64,000 nt of DNA from Leptospiraceae bacterium (GTDB lineage: Bacteria; Spirochaetota; Leptospiria; Turneriellales; Turneriellaceae), in contig JANWWS010000013.1 in the NCBI GenBank assembly GCA_025055765.1, positions 62,001-126,000 on the forward strand, read 5' to 3'. Positions within the stretch are counted from its first letter, which is position 1. Each line of letters begins with the position of its first letter. The position numbers were made by a program, and so were the translations under genes. A model generated the notes under the pieces. The model saw only the letters and a program-made list of their open reading frames with translations. It was not told the DNA's origin and searched no databases. Shown here one piece after another: positions 46,334 through 58,158 of this stretch.

Positions 46334-48685
46334 ATGAAGTTTACTTGGAGTTGGCAAATCTTCCGTAGTCGCTGGGCTTATGCCATCTATGTTTTTCTCC
46401 TCGCAGGAGCTCTCTCCTACACCCCAAGTTGGTTCTTTGCTCAGGAAATATTGGCGTGGCAAGACCTTATTTTGCTAGGAAAGGCTTTAGGTTTTCTGGG
46501 GCTTTTAGGTTTACTTTTTCTCATCACTATTTCTGCAAACTACTTTGGTTTGGAGAGAACTCGCACCATGGGCTTACTTATTGGGTTTAGTATGGCCCTC
46601 CTCTTTATAGGCATTCACTCAAGTCTAAAACTACTAGAACCCATTGAGGAAGCTTCCCTTGACTTTCGTTTTCGTCTTTCTGCTGGGGAGATTACGGAGA
46701 TCCCCATTGAATCAGGTACGGTTATCCAGCGCAAAAACCCAAGAGCCCACCCTGCCATTCAAATCGTAGGAATTACTACCGAGACAGTTAAAGAATTTGG
46801 TGGATTTCCTTTTTCTTGGAAATATTATGCACGCTATTTAAAAGCCCTCAAAGATTCTAATCTCAACACCGTTATGTTTGATATTTTCTTCCTGGATAGT
46901 CAAAAAAATACATTTGAACTCGATGGGAAAACAATAACACTCAGCGAAATCATGCGCGAGCACGGAAAAGTAATTGTGGACTACGGCTTTGAGACAGACC
47001 CACGAAAATTATATGATTTTGAACAGGCAAGAGGTCAAGACAAAGAATTACAGGAGAGACTTCGCGAATTAGAGCGCTTCCGCATCCCCGACCGCAATAT
47101 CATACCCACCCCTTACCTCCAAGGACCAGAATGGGTAGCCTACCCCGATCCCCCCTTAGCAGAGATCACTCGCTCGGTAAACGCCATTGGCGCCGCCAAT
47201 GTCAAGTATGCACCGGGGAGTAAAAACTACAAAATGCCCATGGTCATTAAATGGGAAAACAGGCTTTACCCCTCTATTTCGCTTCTACTCGCCTGCCACT
47301 ACTTTGGCATTGATGTTACCCGTGATGTGGAAGTAAAGTTGGGAGAATATGTCCTGCTCAAGAATATCCCTGAGAAAAAGGTGCAATGGGACCCATTGAG
47401 TGAAGAAAAAGCAGACATCATGACAAAGCCTAATCCCCAACGCGAAATCCGCATACCTATTGACGAAGAAGGGCTCATGTATATTAACTTTATTGGTGGG
47501 GCTTTTTCCTTTCCCTCGGAGCCTTTGCATGAAATAGTACGCGCAGAAGAGGAAAATCCCGGCACCTACTCCCAAAAACAAAACCCCTTTGTTTTTAAAG
47601 ACAAAATGCTACTAACCGCCATGTATTATGCGACAGGGGTAGCTCGAGATATCCACCCCGGACCTTTTGGCCTTGTCGCTGGTATTGAACACCACGCCAA
47701 TGCCTTAAATACAATTTTACAGCAAGACTTTATGTATCATGCTCCGCCATGGCTTGACTACCTCATCTTGCTTTTTGTGGGACTTTTGGTGGGTTTTCTG
47801 GTGCCCCGCTACAACACCATTTCAGTTCTGCTCTACATTGCCCTTTTCAGTGTGCTTTTTGTTATAGAAGTATTTCTTGTCTTTAATGTCTTAAATTACG
47901 TACATACTTTCTTTGTTCCCTTTATTGAAATGACATTGACTCTAATTACTATTGTGGCCTATAAGTCTTTCACAGAAGAAGAAAAAGTAAAATACATTAA
48001 GAACACCTTCAGCAAATTTGTTTCTAAAGAGGTAGTAAACGAGCTTTTAGCGAATCCCGATCTCTTAAAATTGGGTGGCGAGAAAAAGGAAATTACCGTA
48101 TTTTTTTCCGATGTACGGGGCTTTACGACTATTTCGGAATCTCTCTCCCCAGAAAACCTCGTGACTCTACTAAACGACTATCTTTCTGTTATGACTGATA
48201 TTATTATAGAATACCGCGGCACTATCGACAAATATATGGGAGATGCCATCATGGCTTTTTGGGGAGCACCTATCCCCGAAAAAGACCATGCCTACCTGGC
48301 TTGCCTGGCGGCGCTCAAGCAGGTCAAAGAACTTGCTAAGTTACAAGAAAAATGGCGAGAGCAAAATTGGCCTAAGCTCGATATTGGTGCTGGATTAAAT
48401 ACAGGAGAGGCTGTGGTTGGTAATATGGGCTCCTCCCGCCGCATGGACTACACGGTCATGGGAGATACCGTAAACCTGGCCTCTCGACTTGAAGGTGCAA
48501 ACAAAACGTACTATACCCATATCATTATTTCCGAGAGCACCTACGAAAAGGTGAAGGACCGAGTGGTTGTTCGGGAACTCGATTATATCCGCGTCAAGGG
48601 GAAACTTAAACCTGTAACTATCTATGAGCTTTTGGATATAAAAAATGAAGAAGATTTTGAAAAATACCGGGTAAAGAGTATTTAG
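46334..48685 (+). CDS. CHASE2-domain adenylate cyclase
   Basis: A 783-residue membrane protein: N-terminal helices (residues ~15-100), a CHASE2 sensory domain outside the cytoplasm (~95-475, FDIFFLDSQKN, EEGLMYINFIGG), further membrane helices (~475-555) and a C-terminal class III cyclase (~575-770). Metal residues are in VFFSDVRGFTTIS and GDAIMAFWGAP; Lys in KYMGDAIM and Asp in RRMDYTVMGDTVN match adenylyl rather than guanylyl specificity. It would make cAMP in answer to an outside signal. Its stop overlaps feoB by 4 bases. Confidence 0.92.
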   Translation: MKFTWSWQIFRSRWAYAIYVFLLAGALSYTPSWFFAQEILAWQDLILLGKALGFLGLLGLLFLITISANYFGLERTRTMGLLIGFSMALLFIGIHSSLKLLEPIEEASLDFRFRLSAGEITEIPIESGTVIQRKNPRAHPAIQIVGITTETVKEFGGFPFSWKYYARYLKALKDSNLNTVMFDIFFLDSQKNTFELDGKTITLSEIMREHGKVIVDYGFETDPRKLYDFEQARGQDKELQERLRELERFRIPDRNIIPTPYLQGPEWVAYPDPPLAEITRSVNAIGAANVKYAPGSKNYKMPMVIKWENRLYPSISLLLACHYFGIDVTRDVEVKLGEYVLLKNIPEKKVQWDPLSEEKADIMTKPNPQREIRIPIDEEGLMYINFIGGAFSFPSEPLHEIVRAEEENPGTYSQKQNPFVFKDKMLLTAMYYATGVARDIHPGPFGLVAGIEHHANALNTILQQDFMYHAPPWLDYLILLFVGLLVGFLVPRYNTISVLLYIALFSVLFVIEVFLVFNVLNYVHTFFVPFIEMTLTLITIVAYKSFTEEEKVKYIKNTFSKFVSKEVVNELLANPDLLKLGGEKKEITVFFSDVRGFTTISESLSPENLVTLLNDYLSVMTDIIIEYRGTIDKYMGDAIMAFWGAPIPEKDHAYLACLAALKQVKELAKLQEKWREQNWPKLDIGAGLNTGEAVVGNMGSSRRMDYTVMGDTVNLASRLEGANKTYYTHIIISESTYEKVKDRVVVRELDYIRVKGKLKPVTIYELLDIKNEEDFEKYRVKSI

Positions 48686-50745
48686 TTCCCGAGAAAATAA
48701 AGAGCTAGACGATAAGCAAGAAAAGCAAGTACATAGGCAAGAGCAGTCATGTAGATAAATAGAAACAAGGGCCAGCGCCAGCTTATGAGCTCCTTCTTCA
48801 CCACCGCAAGGGTACTCATACACTGAGCGCTTAAAGCAAAAAATACCAACAACGAGATAGCTACGGCTGGGTTAAAGGCAAAACCATCTTCTTTTTTTGT
48901 TCTTGGAAGCTTTTCTGCTAAAGATAAAGCTGTTTCTTCGTCGGCATCCTCCCCCACCTGATAGAGAATTCCTAAAGTAGAAATAATTAGTTCACGGGCA
49001 GGAAAAGCAGCTAAGACAGCCACAGATATCTTCCAATCAAAACCAAGAGGAGCAAAAAGAGGTTCCACAGCTCTACCCATTCTGCCAAGGAAACTCTGCT
49101 CTAAGGCAAAGGCCTTTTCTTTTATCGCCAGGAATCTTTCTTTTTCGCTTTCCTTTAAACCCTCTGGCATTTCCTTTAAAGTTTTCATATACCAACTCTG
49201 ATAAAGCGCATCTTCTTTTTTTATTTTGGGGAAATATGAAAAAAACCAAATGACAAGAGAAAATACTAAAATTACAGATCCTGCTGTAGTTATAAATTTT
49301 AAAGCTGCTGTTTTTACTTTGTAGTAAATATTTTTCCATTGGGGAAGTCGGTAATCGGGCAGCTCTAATAAAAAAGATGACCCTTCTTTGCGAAAAAGGC
49401 TTTTAGAGAAAAGATAAGCCATGGGTAAGGCCACGAGTGGCCCTAGGGCATGTATAGCTACAAAAGCTAATGCCGCTGCAAATTTACCATAAAAGGGTTC
49501 CACAAAGGCACTAATTAGTACCCAGTAAAGAGGAAGTCGAGAAGAACACGACATCAGGGGTGCAATGAGAATCGTGATGACTCGCTCTCGATGTTCTGCA
49601 ATCGTGCGTGTGGCCAGCACACCGGGGATGGCACAGGCAAAACTTGAGAGAAGTGGCACAAACGCCTTGCCGTTAAGGCCACTCCAGCCTAAGAGCTTGT
49701 CCATAAGAAAAGCCGCTCTTGCCAAGTAGCCACTTTCTTCCAAAAGTCCCAAAAAGAAGAAGAGAAACACTATTTGCGGAACAAAAACCAAGACAGATCC
49801 AACACCTTGGATTAGGCCATCTATGACAAGGGAGTGTAAAATGGGAACTTTTGCCAAGGGAGCCGCCGCAAAGTGAGCAAAGGTACCGAAAGTAAACTCA
49901 ATTAGCTCCATAAGAGGCTTGGCCCAAAAGTAAATAGCCTCAAAAATAAAAAACATCACAAGCGCAAAAACCCCCAAACCCCATACCGGATGAGTCACGA
50001 TTTTGTCTAACTTATCACTATAACTCTGGCTTTCCTTTCGCTCCTGGAGGTATACCCCTCTTAGCTTTTCTTCTATGATATGATAGCGAAGAGAAGCCGC
50101 TGCTTGATTTCCCAAGATCTCATCGAACAAGGCAAAATCTACGGCTTGCTTATGAAAACCACGGCTTTTCAGCTTCTTTTCAATGTCAGGAGGAAAGTTA
50201 ATACGAGCAGGAGGTGGTGGATTTTCTACATAGTGACAAATTTCTTTTTTTAGCCTTTGCAGATCCTCTTGATCGCGTAAATCCACATAGAGCACTGGTA
50301 TACCAAGACGGCTAGCTAAGAGATCTGTTTGAACACGCAGACCCTTTTTTTGCGCCAAGTCTTTCATGGTAAGCACAAGAACGGTAGGATAGGAAAGCTG
50401 CGCCAATTGCGTGTAGAGGTAAAGACTACGCTTGAGGGTAGTGACATCCGCTAAATATAAAACCAAATCAATGGACAAAAAATCCGCCTCTTTTCCCAGA
50501 AGTGTTCGAGCTGTTACCCCCTCTTCAGGAGAATAGGCTTTGAGACTGTAGCTCCCGGGAAGATCACTTAGCAAAATCTCGCGCCCAGCACAAAAAAAAA
50601 TGCCGCTTTTTTTCTCTACCGTAGATCCTGGGTAATTAGCAATATACTGTCTTGCCCCACAAAGTGCATTAAAAAGGGTGGATTTACCACTATTGGGGTT
50701 GCCAACTAAAGCAATATGGGCAATCTTTACTGGGTATTGACCCAT
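48682..50745 (-). CDS. feoB: Ferrous iron transporter FeoB
   Basis: A 687-residue inner-membrane protein. The N-terminal G domain has G1 GNPNSGKST, G3 DLPGSYSL, and G4-type MKDLAQ; the membrane domain (residues ~270-685) holds two Gate-type regions, including ALSSFACAIPGVLATR and LMSCSSRLPLYW. It takes up Fe2+ and follows feoA with a short overlap (19 bases), under the Fur box at 50986. Confidence 0.97.
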   Translation of the reverse strand: MGQYPVKIAHIALVGNPNSGKSTLFNALCGARQYIANYPGSTVEKKSGIFFCAGREILLSDLPGSYSLKAYSPEEGVTARTLLGKEADFLSIDLVLYLADVTTLKRSLYLYTQLAQLSYPTVLVLTMKDLAQKKGLRVQTDLLASRLGIPVLYVDLRDQEDLQRLKKEICHYVENPPPPARINFPPDIEKKLKSRGFHKQAVDFALFDEILGNQAAASLRYHIIEEKLRGVYLQERKESQSYSDKLDKIVTHPVWGLGVFALVMFFIFEAIYFWAKPLMELIEFTFGTFAHFAAAPLAKVPILHSLVIDGLIQGVGSVLVFVPQIVFLFFFLGLLEESGYLARAAFLMDKLLGWSGLNGKAFVPLLSSFACAIPGVLATRTIAEHRERVITILIAPLMSCSSRLPLYWVLISAFVEPFYGKFAAALAFVAIHALGPLVALPMAYLFSKSLFRKEGSSFLLELPDYRLPQWKNIYYKVKTAALKFITTAGSVILVFSLVIWFFSYFPKIKKEDALYQSWYMKTLKEMPEGLKESEKERFLAIKEKAFALEQSFLGRMGRAVEPLFAPLGFDWKISVAVLAAFPARELIISTLGILYQVGEDADEETALSLAEKLPRTKKEDGFAFNPAVAISLLVFFALSAQCMSTLAVVKKELISWRWPLFLFIYMTALAYVLAFLAYRLALYFLGN

Positions 50746-50951
50746 ACCGCCTCTGCATCTTTTCGGCGCAGACAGAGCCTATAGCCAAGAAGGGAAACCT
50801 CTATGGGATCACCCCATGGCGCCTTGTTCTTAAGCTCAACATATTCTCCCGGCACAAAACCTAGTTCCATGAGCCTTGGGGCTATGGCCGAGGACTCTAT
50901 TTGGCTGATTTGGCCCTTTTCTCCTAAGGCTAACTCAGATAGACGCACCAT
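50727..50951 (-). CDS. feoA: FeoA, ferrous iron transport accessory protein
   Basis: A 74-residue SH3-like cytoplasmic protein (LSELALGEKGQISQIE, RLMELGFVPGEYVELKNK). The ATG at 50951 is chosen because it gives the usual ~75-residue length; an upstream ATT-type or longer frame to 50984 would add 11 unlikely residues and run next to the Fur box. It is first in the feoAB operon. Confidence 0.93.
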   Translation of the reverse strand: MVRLSELALGEKGQISQIESSAIAPRLMELGFVPGEYVELKNKAPWGDPIEVSLLGYRLCLRRKDAEAVWVNTQ

Positions 50952-50985
50952 AGCCCGCCCTAAGCTCCTCTCTATTATTGTCAAC

Positions 50986-51068: not shown

Positions 51069-52031
51069 ATGTATAACTCTGCCTTTGCTTTCGAAAAATT
51101 TCTAGCGGAGAGGTGGGAAAGTCTGCCTCTGCAGGGTCTTGAAAGTTGGGGAAAGAAACTTGCGTTTTCGATTTTAGAAAGAGTAGTTAACTATAAAAAG
51201 AAGACCGTTACTTTTGACGCAACTTCCTACGAATGCCTTTTCTTAGGCGATCCTAAAAACAGGCCATTTGTGTGGCTTCATGGGTTCAGTGATAATAAAT
51301 ACAGTTTCTCCCGAGTGGCCATGAAATTGAGTCGCAAATTTTATGTGGTCATTCCCGATCTTCCAGGCTTTGACAACAGTACACAACTCATCCACCAAGA
51401 ATATAATTTAGACTACTACACCGCCTACGTCGCCGCCCTTTTTCAGCAACTCGAACTAAAAGACGCTATCTTAGCGGGTAACTCCTTGGGTGGTGCCATT
51501 GCCCTGCAACTAGCCGCCCAACGTGGGGAGCTTGTCTCTCACATTATGCCAGTTAACACTGCAGGAGTTTTAGGCCCAACTTTACGAGGATTTTATAGAG
51601 AACTACTCTCGGGCCATAATATCTTTCACATCACAAGTTATCGGGATTTTGAATACTTTTTAGGCCGAATATTCTACCGCCTTCCCCCCCTGCCCTTTCC
51701 CTTGAAGCTTTTTGTGTATCGCGAGTTGCGCCACAATTCCTTTTGGTATAACAAACTTATGAGCGACCTAACCCATGGTCTTTTTGGAGCCGAGGGACTT
51801 AAGGAAGCTCGCCAATACAAAAACTTTGGTCTTGATAATATGCTTTCCCAAGTTAACTGCCCTACAGATATCATTTGGGGAGAACAAGACTCGCTCTTCC
51901 CTCTAGAGCTTGGCTACTACCTCACGGAAAAAATAAGAAAAGCTTCTTTGCACATTATTACCAATTGTGGCCACTGCCCACATCTAGAAGCACCCGAGCA
52001 TCTTGCTCATCTTTTTTTAAAACTTGCCTAA
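51069..52031 (+). CDS. Alpha/beta hydrolase
   Basis: A 320-residue enzyme of the alpha/beta fold. The oxyanion-region LHGFSDNKYSFS, nucleophile elbow GNSLGG (Ser ~140), acid in WGEQDSLFPLE and His in CGHCPHLEAPE form a credible catalytic triad. There is no signal peptide. Substrate unknown (esterase or lipase-like). The ATG at 51069 is used; a TTG at 51036 lies within the likely promoter. Its stop overlaps the FliG-like gene by four bases. Confidence 0.87.
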   Translation: MYNSAFAFEKFLAERWESLPLQGLESWGKKLAFSILERVVNYKKKTVTFDATSYECLFLGDPKNRPFVWLHGFSDNKYSFSRVAMKLSRKFYVVIPDLPGFDNSTQLIHQEYNLDYYTAYVAALFQQLELKDAILAGNSLGGAIALQLAAQRGELVSHIMPVNTAGVLGPTLRGFYRELLSGHNIFHITSYRDFEYFLGRIFYRLPPLPFPLKLFVYRELRHNSFWYNKLMSDLTHGLFGAEGLKEARQYKNFGLDNMLSQVNCPTDIIWGEQDSLFPLELGYYLTEKIRKASLHIITNCGHCPHLEAPEHLAHLFLKLA

Positions 52032-53035
52032 TAGATATACTCGTCTTCGTCTCGAGCAAAAAAAAGCTTGCCCTCCTCCCTCAATTTTTCTGCCATCTGC
52101 ATGATTTGCCTACGATGGTATTCTACCTCACGCAAGGGCAGAGGACCTAAGTTTTCCATTTCATCGGCAATATCTTTAGCTCGGTTGATGGAGACACTGT
52201 TAAAGATATGCTGCCTTAAGTCTCTTCCCGCTCCTTTCAAAGCCCGCGCCCAAACTCCTGGATCGGGGATCATCTCGTGCAAGAGCCTTATTCCCTCGCG
52301 TCTTACCTCAAGTAAATCAGAGAAGGTAAATAGCTTTTCTCTAAGCCGCTCGCCAAGCTCAGGCATCTCTCGTTGCAAACTTTCTAAGAGTTCTACTTCT
52401 TTTTCAGGACTCATATGCCTTAAAATTTGCGACAAAATTTCCTCGCCATCCACCTTGGATTCCAGATGGTTCTCTTCAGATAGCTTTTCGAGTTCCTCAA
52501 CAAGCTTGGCAGCAAGTCTCTCGAGAGCCTCTGGTGAGATCTTTTGCGTTTTTGCAATGCGACGAGCAACGGCTGCTTTTCTAGAATCATCGAGAAAAGA
52601 CAAAATCTTCGCTGCATAAGCCGGCTCTAAAACCGCCAGAGTAACCGCCACTATCTGATCACTCTCCTTTTCAAGAACCTTTGCCACAAGCTCTACTGGA
52701 TATTCCTGAAGAGCTCTTAACTTTTGAGTAAATTCCCTGCGACTAAGTCTCTCCAGGATCTCCTGAGCCTTTTCTGGACCAAGTGCCTTCGTTAAAAGCT
52801 CCTCTGCTTTTTCTTTCCCCCCCTCAAGCTCTTCTCGTCGGCGCTCCATTTCATCCTTAAGTTTTGCGAGAGCTGCCTGCTTCTCTTGCGCGCTAATGTG
52901 CTTTATAGACAACACAGCCTTGATAAGTTTTTCAGCCTCTTCGGGGCTCAGTTTTTGTAAGACTCGCCCTGCAGTTTCGGGACCGAGGGAGATCAGGGCA
53001 ATTGCAGCTTGTCTTATTTTATCATTTTCTGCCAA
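52028..53035 (-). CDS. Divergent FliG-like protein
   Basis: A 335-residue protein with the three-domain arrangement of FliG, the flagellar rotor switch protein. The middle and C-terminal domains are recognisable (VAVTLAVLEPAYAAKILSFLDD, ALKGAGRDLRQHIFNSVS, ENLGPLPLREVEYHRRQIM). The EHPQ motif is ESDQ, and the conserved DDRSIQ before the torque helix is RREGIR. No flagellar genes adjoin; instead the three genes before it form a partner-switching set. It could be a second FliG tuned by that pathway or have a non-rotor role. Confidence 0.82.
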   Translation of the reverse strand: MAENDKIRQAAIALISLGPETAGRVLQKLSPEEAEKLIKAVLSIKHISAQEKQAALAKLKDEMERRREELEGGKEKAEELLTKALGPEKAQEILERLSRREFTQKLRALQEYPVELVAKVLEKESDQIVAVTLAVLEPAYAAKILSFLDDSRKAAVARRIAKTQKISPEALERLAAKLVEELEKLSEENHLESKVDGEEILSQILRHMSPEKEVELLESLQREMPELGERLREKLFTFSDLLEVRREGIRLLHEMIPDPGVWARALKGAGRDLRQHIFNSVSINRAKDIADEMENLGPLPLREVEYHRRQIMQMAEKLREEGKLFFARDEDEYIY

Positions 53036-53043
53036 GGACTTTC

Positions 53044-53373
53044 CTATGAGGCAAGAGCTTCTTCTTCTGTTTCGTAAATATCAAACATATCCATGAGTTC
53101 CACTACTTCAAAGATCTTACGCACCGGACTATTGAGTTGGCATAATTTAAGTCGCCTAGAGTTAGCCTTAAGTATACGCATGACCGCCACAAGGACTCTT
53201 AAGCCACTTGAAGACATATATTCAACTTCTGCTAAGTTGATAACCACATCTCCTTTGGGGTGCTTTTCCAAAATCTCGTTAATCTCCCTCTCCACCTCGG
53301 CACTTAATTGCACATCGAGGCGGCCACGCAAATATATTATTAGTTGCTCACCAACCTGCTTTGTGCGGATCAT
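53044..53373 (-). CDS. STAS-domain anti-sigma factor antagonist-like protein
   Basis: A 109-residue single STAS domain (RsbV/SpoIIAA type). The phosphorylation site is in EVEYMSSSGLRVLVAV (Ser near 57-58), and the N-terminal LIIYLRGRLDV and CQLNSPVRKIFEVVEL fit the family. Such proteins bind the kinase in their unphosphorylated form. It lies 30 bases after the RsbW-like gene and 8 before the FliG-like gene. Confidence 0.92.
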   Translation of the reverse strand: MIRTKQVGEQLIIYLRGRLDVQLSAEVEREINEILEKHPKGDVVINLAEVEYMSSSGLRVLVAVMRILKANSRRLKLCQLNSPVRKIFEVVELMDMFDIYETEEEALAS

Positions 53374-53403
53374 TTACCCCCCTGGTCATGTTACAAATAA
53401 ACC

Positions 53404-53841
53404 TCAAGATGACAACCTTTTGAGCAAAATGGTTCTATTTTCCCCATCACGACATTGATAACGGATTCGGCTCATGAGACTACGCATAAGGTGCACACCA
53501 AAACCCCCTCTGCGTTTGCCCGCTAGGTTTAAACGAATATCCGGCAAGGGAACCTTAGCCATATCAAAAGAAATACCTCGGTCCCGCAATATAACTTCCA
53601 CTACGTTTCTTTTCTTGCGCAAGGTTAGTTCAATAGTGTCACTTTTGCGCCGTGCTTCATCAACTGGTCCATATGCATGTAGGATAATATTAGTCGCCGC
53701 TTCATCACAAGCCAAGACTATGTCATCAAGGTCCTCTCTCGATACCCCCCAATTGCTTAGGGTTGATTCCACAAAGCTTTTTACTTTAGGAATTTCTTTT
53801 ACGTCAACCTGAAAATTGTGACGAACGACAAACATATTCAC
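53404..53841 (-). CDS. RsbW-like serine kinase / anti-sigma factor
   Basis: A 145-residue HATPase of the GHKL family. The N-box is DEAATNIILHAYG, G1 is DRGISFD, and G2 is GGFGVHLMRSLM. These kinases phosphorylate STAS antagonists and sequester a target, classically a sigma factor; no sigma gene is adjacent. Its start overlaps the phosphatase gene stop by four bases. Confidence 0.9.
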   Translation of the reverse strand: MNMFVVRHNFQVDVKEIPKVKSFVESTLSNWGVSREDLDDIVLACDEAATNIILHAYGPVDEARRKSDTIELTLRKKRNVVEVILRDRGISFDMAKVPLPDIRLNLAGKRRGGFGVHLMRSLMSRIRYQCRDGENRTILLKRLSS

Positions 53842-56216
53842 TCCAAAATCTTTATTACCATTAATGTGAAATCATCATAAAGTCCTTCATTACCAGTAAA
53901 GTCTCGCACATGCTTGTAAATCTCTTTTACTATGTCCTCAGCGCTTCGGGATGAGTACTGTGCCACAAGCTCCTTTAACCTCTCAAGTCCAAACTCTTCT
54001 TGGGCATCATTAATGGCTTCTACGACACCATCGGTGTAGAGCACGATAATATCTCCCTTTGCTAAATGCGTTTTACCCTCACCAAAAGGACCATGAGTTT
54101 TCGAATCTAAAATTCCCAGGGGCCTGCCCTTGGTGCGCAAGATCTCAAAATCATGGGTCAAGGCTCGGTAGATGAGCTGTTCGTTGTGCCCCGCCGATGA
54201 ATACGAGAACTCCCCAGTGGGGGCTCGGTACATCGAGTAAAAAAGAGTAACAAACATGCCCGAGTGGCTATCCTGATAAATGAGATCATTTGCCCTGTAG
54301 AGCGTTTCTGCCGGCGATTTGCCTTCCCGAGATATGGTACGTAAAATGGAACTTGTCACTGCCATAAACAAGGCAGCGGGCAAGCTTTTTCCGGAAACAT
54401 CAGCTATAGAAAAAATGTATTTCTCTTGGTCGCGAAAATAATAATAGTCATAGAAATCCCCCCCCATTACTTTTGCAGGCATAGAAATCACACCCATGTC
54501 AACATGGTGTGAATCTAGTTTCCTGTGTGGTAAAATAGATTTTTGAATACTGGAGGTAATCTCTAGTTCTTTTTCGTAAGCCCTTTTCGCCATCATTTCA
54601 TTAAGAAGCCTAAGATTTTGAATTCCTTGCGTCACTTGCACCGCTATAGTTGAAACCAAACGAAACTCATCCTCGGAGAATCCTTCCGGCGTGTTTTTCT
54701 CGGAAATAGTAAGCAAACCATAGATCTCCTCTCCTGCCATGAGAGGGTAAATAATGCAGGCGCCCGTACGATATCGCTTTTCATTTCGGTAGCTCGCGTA
54801 TTCACTAGACAAGAGATCATTTGTGTAGATAATCTTCCTTTGACGAAAAGCAATCCCGGCGAGGCTCGTAGAAAGAGGGATTTTTTCCGCTTCATAGTTG
54901 TTAAGCTCAAGCCCTACTTGAGCGACAATTCTTAGACAGTCTGCTTCATTATCATAAAGCAGAATAGACACTCTTGCTGCTTGCAATTCATCGGCTATTA
55001 TACGCACAATGGAATTATACAACTCTTTTTCCTTTAAATTGGAAATCAATACCTTACTTATTTCATGCAAACTAGAGAGTTCATGAACTTTCTTTTTAAG
55101 CTCACGGTTAATATGGCGCAAAGAATCTATTAGTTCTCGATTGTGTATGGCCAAGGCGGATTGTTCTGCAAAACTTTGAAAAAGCTCTAAATCTTTTTCG
55201 CTAAATTCCTCCCTGCCTATGGAGTTAATAACTTCAATAACGCCAATAACTTCGTTTCGCACAAGTAGCGGTGCGGCTATCATATTCCTGGTAACAAAAT
55301 TAATAGTTTTGTCGGCTTGCCTAAAGAGCCTTGGATCATTTTGGGCATCATTGACAATGAGGGGCTGCTTTGTTTGCGCTACATAACCCGCAATTCCCAC
55401 CCCTATGGGGATGCGTATTTCCTTTAGTCCCTTTTCATTCTCCCCTGTAATGGTGTTAAAATAAAGCTCCTGTGTTTTCTTATCAATTAACATAAGACTT
55501 GAGGCTTCGGCTTTTAAGACAAGCTTGGCAGATTCCATGATCGACTCTAAGAGACTTTGAAGGTCCAAAGTAGAATTAATTAACTTCGATACCTTCATCA
55601 TTTCAGAAAGAAGGAAATTCGCCTCGACATAGTTCTTGTAGAGGTACATGTTTTCCAGTAAAGCCAACAGACTTTTTGAGAAACTTACTAACAAACGATG
55701 CGCAGCGGAATCAAGGGCAGTGCTGGCAAGAAGCCTACCAAAGCTATTAGCCAAACTTTGCAAAAGCGAAAGATCCTCTTCACCAAAATGGCCATCCTTT
55801 AATTTTTTTTCTAAAATTACAACACCCACTGGGGATTTTGACCTTACCAAAATGGGTACAGCCAGGTAGGACTTTTGGGATTCTCCTACAAAATCCCCCT
55901 CCTCTGTGTATAGAGGTTGCCCTTGAAAGAGCGTTTGAGCTAGGCGGTTTTTCATTACGACATTCCCAAGCTGCCTCTCAACAGGTGTTACATGTGAATC
56001 TCTTGAGCAAATTATTCTAGTCTTGCCGTCTACGAAGCGCAAAAAGACTTTGCCACCTTCGCTTTGCGCCAGGTACATGGCAGTGCGCAGCAAAAAGCGT
56101 GCCGCTAAGTACAGCTGCGGGTGGGGTTTTAAGGCAAAATTAGCTCCTTCTTTCTCGATGACCGGCGGTAGGCCAGAGACCACCTCATGTTGGGCCATTA
56201 AATCCACGGTTACCAT
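53838..56216 (-). CDS. GAF-GAF-GAF-SpoIIE phosphatase
   Basis: A 792-residue cytoplasmic protein with three GAF-type sensory domains (residues ~35-165, ~215-365, ~385-535), a short coiled linker (ITSSIQKSILPHRK) and a C-terminal PP2C/SpoIIE domain (~575-790) with metal motifs GGDFYDYY, IADVSGKSLPAALF and YDDFTLMVIK. It would dephosphorylate the STAS protein two genes downstream. GAF domains likely sense a small ligand, identity unknown. Confidence 0.92.
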   Translation of the reverse strand: MVTVDLMAQHEVVSGLPPVIEKEGANFALKPHPQLYLAARFLLRTAMYLAQSEGGKVFLRFVDGKTRIICSRDSHVTPVERQLGNVVMKNRLAQTLFQGQPLYTEEGDFVGESQKSYLAVPILVRSKSPVGVVILEKKLKDGHFGEEDLSLLQSLANSFGRLLASTALDSAAHRLLVSFSKSLLALLENMYLYKNYVEANFLLSEMMKVSKLINSTLDLQSLLESIMESAKLVLKAEASSLMLIDKKTQELYFNTITGENEKGLKEIRIPIGVGIAGYVAQTKQPLIVNDAQNDPRLFRQADKTINFVTRNMIAAPLLVRNEVIGVIEVINSIGREEFSEKDLELFQSFAEQSALAIHNRELIDSLRHINRELKKKVHELSSLHEISKVLISNLKEKELYNSIVRIIADELQAARVSILLYDNEADCLRIVAQVGLELNNYEAEKIPLSTSLAGIAFRQRKIIYTNDLLSSEYASYRNEKRYRTGACIIYPLMAGEEIYGLLTISEKNTPEGFSEDEFRLVSTIAVQVTQGIQNLRLLNEMMAKRAYEKELEITSSIQKSILPHRKLDSHHVDMGVISMPAKVMGGDFYDYYYFRDQEKYIFSIADVSGKSLPAALFMAVTSSILRTISREGKSPAETLYRANDLIYQDSHSGMFVTLFYSMYRAPTGEFSYSSAGHNEQLIYRALTHDFEILRTKGRPLGILDSKTHGPFGEGKTHLAKGDIIVLYTDGVVEAINDAQEEFGLERLKELVAQYSSRSAEDIVKEIYKHVRDFTGNEGLYDDFTLMVIKILE

Positions 56217-56254
56217 AAGTTTCTATCTTGGCAAGTCAAAACAACGAACTTTCG

Positions 56255-56758
56255 TTAAACCACTGCTTTTAATTCCTGCTCGGCAAACCAGCGCAGCTCC
56301 GCGGGGGAAAGCTCACTTTTATCAAGACCCAATTCCTCAAAGTAAAAACAAAGCTGTGCTAAGCGCAGGATAGTGTTATCCCTTTTTTGCGCCTCCTTGC
56401 CTAATTCTATAAAATAGAGATCTTTTATCTCTTGCCTATAGGCATTGTCTTTTCCAGTGAAAATTAGAGCAGCCTCCATAAGATCGTACATAATAGTGCG
56501 GCAAAAGCGCAGGAACTCTTCATCTTCTTTTTCCCAATGAAGTCGAGCTAACTGTACTTGAAAATAATCGCCCCAACTAATAATATCGGGATAAACCCCA
56601 TATTTTACGAAAAGTTCCTGTGCCTTCTCTTCACTGGTATAAGGTTCGCGTGCTAGGCGATCTACAAATTCTTTTAGTTGTCCCAAAGCTTCTATTTTAA
56701 CGGAATTTAACCGTCTGCGCCCTACCATTTCGCTTAATTGGGGATTGAGTTGACACAT
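56255..56758 (-). CDS. Unknown protein heading the partner-switch operon
   Basis: A 167-residue protein without signal peptide or membrane helix, mostly helical and acidic; Trp/Tyr-rich stretches such as DIISWGDYFQVQLARLHWEK are its most distinctive part. I do not recognise a family. It lies 38 bases before the SpoIIE gene on the same strand and starts the operon that includes the RsbW-like, STAS and FliG-like genes. Confidence 0.7.
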   Translation of the reverse strand: MCQLNPQLSEMVGRRRLNSVKIEALGQLKEFVDRLAREPYTSEEKAQELFVKYGVYPDIISWGDYFQVQLARLHWEKEDEEFLRFCRTIMYDLMEAALIFTGKDNAYRQEIKDLYFIELGKEAQKRDNTILRLAQLCFYFEELGLDKSELSPAELRWFAEQELKAVV

Positions 56759-56820
56759 ACTTTTTTTTCGACTTAAAGAGCATAAGGCTCAAGCAATGCC
56801 TTGCCGATATTTTCTCAAGA

Positions 56821-57279
56821 ATGAGATTCCTCTTTTTAGCCTTGACCTTGCTATCACCTCTTCTTTGGTCCCAAGAGCAGAGTCAGGACAAGCTTTTGTA
56901 TTTGCTGGCTTTATCTCTACACAAAGAAGAGCGATCTCATGAAGCCTTGAGCCTACTTGAAGATCTCTGTGAACTTTACCCGGAATCCCCCCTCTTTGTG
57001 ATGGCAAGCGAAAAAATGGCTGAAATTTTTAGAGAAAAAAAGATGTATGGGCAGGCAGCAAAAATCTACCGCATGCTGGCGGTGCGCCTTGGCCCCACCC
57101 TACAAGCCATGAACTACCGCCTCCAAGAAGCTAAGATCCTGCGACAACTCGGCCATTACGTAAAAGCGGAGGAGATCTTGAAACAAATCATTTACCTTTT
57201 GCCAGAAAGTCCTGCTGCCACAGAAGCAGAAAATGAACTTAAGAGCATCTCTTTTGTACGGCAATTACATGCTGAATAG
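56821..57279 (+). CDS. Small exported TPR protein
   Basis: A 152-residue protein with a signal peptide (residues 1-17, MRFLFLALTLLSPLLWS) and two to three tetratricopeptide-like repeats (LLYLLALSLHKEERSHEALSLLEDL; MYGQAAKIYRMLAV; GHYVKAEEILKQIIYLLPE). It overlaps the opposing HDOD gene by 15 bases. TATTTT at 56808 ends 7 bases before the ATG and no Shine-Dalgarno is present. Role unknown. Confidence 0.78.
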   Translation: MRFLFLALTLLSPLLWSQEQSQDKLLYLLALSLHKEERSHEALSLLEDLCELYPESPLFVMASEKMAEIFREKKMYGQAAKIYRMLAVRLGPTLQAMNYRLQEAKILRQLGHYVKAEEILKQIIYLLPESPAATEAENELKSISFVRQLHAE

Positions 57280-58158
57280 TTCTTCGCAAAATGAATAAAA
57301 TGAATCTTCGGCAATGCGTGCCTTAAGATCATTCAAGAAAAAACTCTTTTGCCTTGCCTCAAGTTTTAAGTGAGAGGCATAGTTCTCGAATATGTTATGG
57401 TAATAATTGTGCCACTCTGGCTTTAAGTTTTGGGTATACTCCGTATAGCCCCCCAAGATAACTAAAATTCCAGCCATTATCACAGGCAGCACTAGAGGAT
57501 TTTTTTCGTCATAACTGACATCGATTTCCCAGTGTTCTAGTTTCGCAAGCTCATAAAGCTCGGCCGGGAAATTCCAACGCTGCATGGCAAGTTCACTTAC
57601 TTCTGGGCCACTTACACCTAACTCTTTTTTTTCAAGTTCCCGAAGTTTTTTTACATCGAGGCCGTGGTCAGCTTGATAAAAGATCATCCCATAGGTTTCC
57701 GTGAATTGGTTATTTAGGATCATCATTCCCATGTCTTTCAGAAGAGCAGCCATAAAGGCCTCATCGCGTAAATTGCGGCGACCTAATTGCTCACAAATAA
57801 TTTTTGCGATAAGTGCTGATAGCACCGAGCGCATCCAGAGCTCCTTTTGCACTTTATTGGAACGACGATGCCGAGGGAAAAGAGAAGCACTTGACACTAG
57901 CAAAGTAAGACTCTTAATTGTCTTAAAGCCTAAAAGAGTAATGGCTTGTGACAGCGAAGTTACCTTATTCGAACGCGCGTAAAAAGCTGAATTTGCGATC
58001 TTTAAGATCTTCGAAGTGAGGGCGGGATCGACAGCAACGATAGCCTGCAATTGATCAGAGGATACGTCAATGTTGCTCTCTTCAATTTGGAGGATTTTGG
58101 AGACCACCTGCGGCATTGGCGGTAGATCTATATTCTGGAGCTTCGCACTGCCCATCAT
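57265..58158 (-). CDS. HDOD-domain signalling protein
   Basis: A 297-residue protein dominated by an HDOD domain (residues ~10-215): LPPMPQVVSKILQIEE, DPALTSKILKIANSAFY, LSQAITLLGFKTIKSL. The HD metal residues are absent, as usual for HDOD, so it is a regulatory rather than hydrolytic domain. It is transcribed away from the spoT gene. Candidate promoter: -35 TTGACA and -10 TAACTT upstream. Confidence 0.9.
   Translation of the reverse strand: MMGSAKLQNIDLPPMPQVVSKILQIEESNIDVSSDQLQAIVAVDPALTSKILKIANSAFYARSNKVTSLSQAITLLGFKTIKSLTLLVSSASLFPRHRRSNKVQKELWMRSVLSALIAKIICEQLGRRNLRDEAFMAALLKDMGMMILNNQFTETYGMIFYQADHGLDVKKLRELEKKELGVSGPEVSELAMQRWNFPAELYELAKLEHWEIDVSYDEKNPLVLPVIMAGILVILGGYTEYTQNLKPEWHNYYHNIFENYASHLKLEARQKSFFLNDLKARIAEDSFYSFCEELFSM

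Follow-up and report, generated by a model that had tools for sequence, protein, structure and literature searches.

A conserved partner-switching unit carrying a divergent FliG paralog in an order of spirochaetes

Introduction

What does a partner-switching operon control when a paralog of a flagellar rotor protein stands at the place of a sigma factor? The partner switches of Bacillus (RsbU-RsbW-RsbV and SpoIIE-SpoIIAB-SpoIIAA) combine a PP2C-like phosphatase with sensors, an RsbW-type kinase and a STAS protein with a conserved serine in a tight operon, and all of these features are shared by a locus of a Leptospiraceae bacterium, found in a stretch of 64,000 nucleotides of contig JANWWS010000013.1 (the window). 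In Bacillus a sigma gene often lies where the window operon, itself without one, has a gene for a FliG paralog (FliG1), and the window RsbW differs further in scoring far under the RsbW and SpoIIAB equivalog cut-offs. A first-pass annotation of the window had suggested that FliG, or a motility structure, might be the output of the switch instead of transcription.

Results

The unit in the window

The gene families given in the first-pass annotation (SpoIIE/GAF phosphatase, RsbW, STAS and FliG) all agree with the open reading frames and profile scores (Table 1), and no sigma gene was found in the window cluster, as had been stated. The same-strand spacing is as tight as described, with gaps of -4 (overlap of the phosphatase and RsbW genes), 30 (RsbW/STAS) and 8 bases (STAS/FliG1) in the four-gene core; the TTG start of FliG1 is preceded by GGAAAG just after the STAS stop codon.

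Table 1. Features of the window, with positions counted from its first letter
Feature	Position	Strand	Evidence or remark
FliG paralog (FliG1), 335 aa, TTG start	52028..53035	-	FliG_N, FliG_M and FliG_C above Pfam cut-off
STAS antagonist, RsbV/SpoIIAA-like, 109 aa	53044..53373	-	STAS 72.1 bits; TIGR00377 80.5 bits, above cut-off
RsbW-type serine kinase / anti-sigma fold, 145 aa	53404..53841	-	HATPase_c_2 73 bits
SpoIIE phosphatase, three GAF and a SpoIIE/PP2C-like domain, 792 aa	53838..56216	-	Pfam SpoIIE 170.7 bits, GAF 149 bits
167-aa protein of no matched family	56255..56758	-	Neighbour 38 bases upstream of the phosphatase gene; outside the conserved core
Cluster of the 167-aa protein, TPR and HDOD genes	56255..58158		Recurs in loci L233, L235 and L236
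Large GTPase-transporter ORF by a small ORF	48682..50984		Looks like a FeoB-FeoA pair
CHASE2 adenylate/guanylate cyclase	46334..48685		Pfam CHASE2 103.6 bits, Guanylate_cyc 86.8 bits

The operon had been described as one of five genes, of which four form a conserved unit and the fifth belongs to a separate conserved cluster. The 167-aa product of the fifth gene matched no family above cut-off among the Pfam and NCBIfam profiles. Of the 18 genomes of the order, 14 have a homologue: that of the window and 13 of the 17 others. In these relatives the homologues lie away from the FliG1 operon, and several adjoin genes for a TPR and an HDOD protein, as are also found directly after the gene in the window. 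Membership of the operon was ruled out on these grounds. In two genomes of family f4 no more than about 250 bases separate the gene from another STAS gene.

Conservation within the order

The comparison set comprised 18 genomes of the window's order, probably Turneriellales. The phosphatase, the kinase and FliG1 occur in identical order in 16 of them, joined by STAS in 14 of the 16, while FliG1 identity to the window protein ranges from 22 to 50%; an arrangement kept at such identities is not due to chance. Both a phosphatase ortholog and FliG1 are missing from the remaining two genomes, G017 (92% complete) and G001 (54% complete), and since the genes are adjacent, their joint absence may reflect a single assembly gap. 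Relative to the preceding stop codon, FliG1 starts at -4 to +11 bases in 15/16 genomes, the other (G015) having an annotated overlap of 32. Around the unit many flanking genes differ among genera; a LeuC/LeuD-like pair, identified by eye, is found downstream of FliG1 in several genomes. None of the 16 operons contains a sigma gene.

The STAS gene is missing from the unit in two genomes of family f3, where the gaps between RsbW and FliG1 are -4 and 0. Relocation of the gene was ruled out, as the remaining close STAS of these genomes is the ortholog of another of the window genome's STAS loci, in the same context. Also conserved in the order is a second locus with a STAS gene, close to a peptidase-like gene (L239 5586-8525, L237 and L238); in the window genome it adjoins a putative cyclic-nucleotide-binding protein, and it is apparently another STAS system.

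FliG1 and the switch outside the order

FliG1 also occurs in the sister families of the class and in other spirochaetes, but apart from the switch. No neighbouring RsbW or SpoIIE gene came up in an HMM search of the flanks of 33 unlinked FliG1 loci (9-14 kb at 12 of them and about 2.6-4 kb at 21), and STAS gave a single weak match of 18 bits at a distance, which rules out that these loci appeared unlinked through poor reading of their flanks. The unlinked FliG1s of family f6 (L015, L017, L021 and others) have long, variable N-terminal extensions, with open frames of up to 522 aa. The conserved co-occurrence on which the first-pass annotation had staked its proposal is found in 16/16 FliG1-bearing genomes within the order and fails outside it, in the sister families.

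Related phosphatase-kinase-STAS modules do occur in the sister families without FliG, often as a SpoIIE::RsbW fusion with a TPR gene upstream, and the closest STAS proteins without FliG are 57-62% identical to that of the window. The module is thus not intrinsically tied to FliG, and a universal tie was ruled out. The gene after STAS in these modules often encodes a protein of ~800 aa that only weakly resembles trehalase and other 6-hairpin glycosidases. The full order (TPR-type gene, GAF-SpoIIE::RsbW, STAS, ~800-aa glycosidase-like gene) recurs in sister spirochaete families at L158 (8634-15572), L165 (2075-8876), L230 (2864-9982), L156 and L159, a conserved partner switch with a puzzling carbohydrate-enzyme-like partner; other phylum members (L118-L120, L135 and L140) have a large gene after STAS that may resemble it.

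Because FliG1 and the module are unlinked outside the order, their linkage most simply has a single origin, in this order. The 16 genomes are consequently not 16 independent events, and a linkage that arose once cannot establish contact between the proteins.

Switch proteins and candidate partners

The signalling motifs of the switch are intact. Those of the phosphatase (ADVSGK, YTDG and DD(F/L)T) and of the kinase (the RsbW N-box D-E-x-x-x-N and the GG(F/Y)G lid) are conserved in 16/16 orthologs, and the phospho-serine motif of STAS (EYMSSSGLR, with SSSG) is invariant in all 14 genomes that have the gene. Since these motifs are conserved throughout, phosphorylation and dephosphorylation by the switch proteins would be expected from what is known of their families.

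Binding of a sigma factor is the classic role of RsbW family members, and an unlinked FliA/WhiG-like or RpoS-like sigma may be the RsbW target, with FliG1 merely co-transcribed for the same physiological response. The genome encodes RpoD, an RpoS-like group-2 sigma, a FliA/WhiG protein (421 bits to WhiG) and three ECF sigmas, among which the FliA/WhiG-like and RpoS-like proteins are the closest candidates, and the sister-family module, which has no FliG, also fits such a role. Against this, no SigB/F/G-type sigma in the genome passes its cut-off, no sigma gene accompanies the operons of the order, and neither the near-overlap of FliG1 nor the persistence of RsbW beside FliG1 after STAS loss is explained. 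On balance a sigma target is considered unlikely. As RsbW-like proteins and sigmas are numerous, cross-talk among switches is possible. The correlation of evolutionary rates between RsbW and FliG1 is suggestive in one pair and absent in another, and was therefore set aside as a sign of contact.

STAS itself would be the output if its unphosphorylated form bound FliG1 or the motor directly, and STAS outputs are known from the SypA, BtrV and RbaV systems (PMC8256260). It is the most conserved of the four unit proteins and FliG1 directly follows it in 14/16 genomes, yet the f3 genomes keep SpoIIE, RsbW and FliG1 in its absence and its close relatives outside the order occur without FliG, so that a STAS output appears very improbable.

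FliG1 is an altered second FliG

The window FliG1 has all three FliG domains above Pfam cut-off (FliG_N 95.3, FliG_M 79.3 and FliG_C 97 bits), and the label 'divergent' given to it earlier is justified by its score of 185.9 bits to NCBIfam TIGR00207 (fliG), under the equivalog cut-off of 226.7. Its predicted structure matches solved FliG, including the FliF-bound FliG_N, FliM-bound FliG_M and MotAB-bound FliG_C domains, in a model whose domain arrangement is uncertain (pTM 0.36). The usual flagellar operon (fliF-fliG-fliH-fliI) does not contain FliG1: the place directly after FliF is held by a canonical FliG (G000:C26). FliM is single-copy in 18/18 genomes of the order and FliF was found in 17/18, the exception being the 54%-complete G001. 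With at most one of each per genome in these 18 genomes, no dedicated second FliF or FliM for FliG1 was found. One genome has a further, nearly identical copy of canonical FliG on a contig of 5 kb (L198, G016:C2), which possibly reflects a strain mixture in the assembly.

In a tree of linked, unlinked and canonical FliGs, with no identified Borrelia FliG1 among them, the linked FliG1s form one clade (100/100) next to the unlinked FliG1s, with canonical FliG apart (100/99) and the branching among FliG1 groups unsettled. The EHPQR site of FliG binds FliM (PMC6290876). EHPQ is invariant in 32 canonical FliGs, and about two thirds of the unlinked FliG1s retain it, whereas all 16 linked FliG1s have it altered, the window protein to ESDQ. 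The charges of the torque helix (E. coli numbering) are retained in part: K264 is present in all linked FliG1s and an acidic residue at 289 in most of those outside the Turneriella genus, but R281 is displaced by a single position, a shift shared by most FliG1s. Where dN/dS could be estimated in close pairs it was 0.026-0.047, indicating purifying selection.

The change goes furthest in group g6, which we take to be the Turneriella genus. Here FliG1, whose stem branch in the tree is very long at 3.36 changes per site, has lost the FliF-binding domain: no FliG_N match was detected by Pfam at the N-terminus of the four proteins scanned, and the top 50 matches of the predicted structure include no FliF:FliG_N complex, while the FliM- and MotAB-bound domains are still matched. 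In place of FliG_N there appears to be a short segment containing an amphipathic helix, which is found in 7/7 g6 proteins with a moment of 0.61-0.72 in a helical window chosen post hoc (0.2-4.6% of shuffles score as high). A decaying gene was ruled out by the low dN/dS and by the open reading frame being conserved in 7/7.

Simple co-expression is the remaining account, by which the operon promoter would set the dosage of FliG1, a second rotor protein like any other, and the switch would exert no control at the protein level. FliG1 is after all an old spirochaete paralog, unlinked in most relatives, and in Borrelia it is an asymmetrically localised motor protein (PMC7225975). Such an account predicts neither the retention of the unit in four families despite rearranged flanks nor the altered FliM interface and the FliF-domain loss in g6, and is judged quite unlikely.

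Discussion

The proposal that FliG is the output gains from the abutting RsbW and FliG1 genes where STAS is lost, from the lack of a SigB/F/G-type sigma in the genome and from the rotor-interface features that the linked FliG1s have lost; the FliA/WhiG-like and RpoS-like sigmas keep a transcriptional output possible. Of the readings considered, the likeliest, held tentatively, is that the switch gates FliG1, and more probably through RsbW than through STAS, given that RsbW and FliG1 remain together in the genomes whose unit lacks STAS.

By analogy with the family, the GAF sensors of the phosphatase would set its activity, RsbW would phosphorylate the STAS serine and SpoIIE would remove the phosphate, the active-site motifs for these last two steps being conserved. 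RsbW would bind FliG1 for as long as STAS is phosphorylated; unphosphorylated STAS would take RsbW and so free FliG1, which would then alter the flagellar motor via its M and C domains. In species that have kept FliG_N, FliG1 would join the rotor as a paralogous subunit; for the Turneriella genus a clutch- or decoy-like factor is envisaged. The most specific form of this proposal is that RsbW has swapped a sigma client for FliG1, held or released by serine phosphorylation as a post-translational gate on the periplasmic flagellar motor, and that the g6 FliG1, with its FliF domain lost and an N-terminal helix gained, would be a dedicated, possibly membrane-associated output and not a rotor subunit. 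This specific form is somewhat unlikely to hold in full.

To our knowledge, none of the BtrUVW, SypE-SypA, RbaVW, HmpUVW and HptB switches has a FliG operon partner, and no paper joining partner switching with FliG was found in the open-licence literature. These systems, which include BtrUVW of Bordetella type III secretion, SypE-SypA of Vibrio biofilm formation, RbaVW, HmpUVW and HptB-PA3346-PA3347, are sigma-independent or of unassigned output (PMC8256260); their partner-switch proteins govern secretion, biofilms or motility, and STAS is frequently the output, whereas the proposed target here is a motor-protein paralog. Borrelia burgdorferi likewise has a second, divergent FliG (FliG1) beside the canonical one (FliG2) (PMC7225975), but that of the unit is linked to a partner switch, has an altered FliM motif and lacks FliG_N in the Turneriella genus. 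The EpsE clutch (PMC3000366) and the YcgR brake (PMC10140304) act on the motor at FliG and not via transcription, as is proposed here. In the present case, though, regulation would fall on a paralog of FliG, with serine phosphorylation as the signal in place of EPS synthesis or c-di-GMP.

For several partner switches no sigma factor is known, which raises the question of what their kinase or STAS protein binds in its stead; the comparison of genomes here points to a FliG paralog as a candidate client. The Turneriella genus provides a clear example of a FliG paralog without its rotor-docking domain, and the lineage includes a cultivated member of that genus. If the proposal is true, a bacterial serine-phosphorylation switch would act directly on the flagellar motor, and the second FliG carried by many spirochaetes would be given a function.
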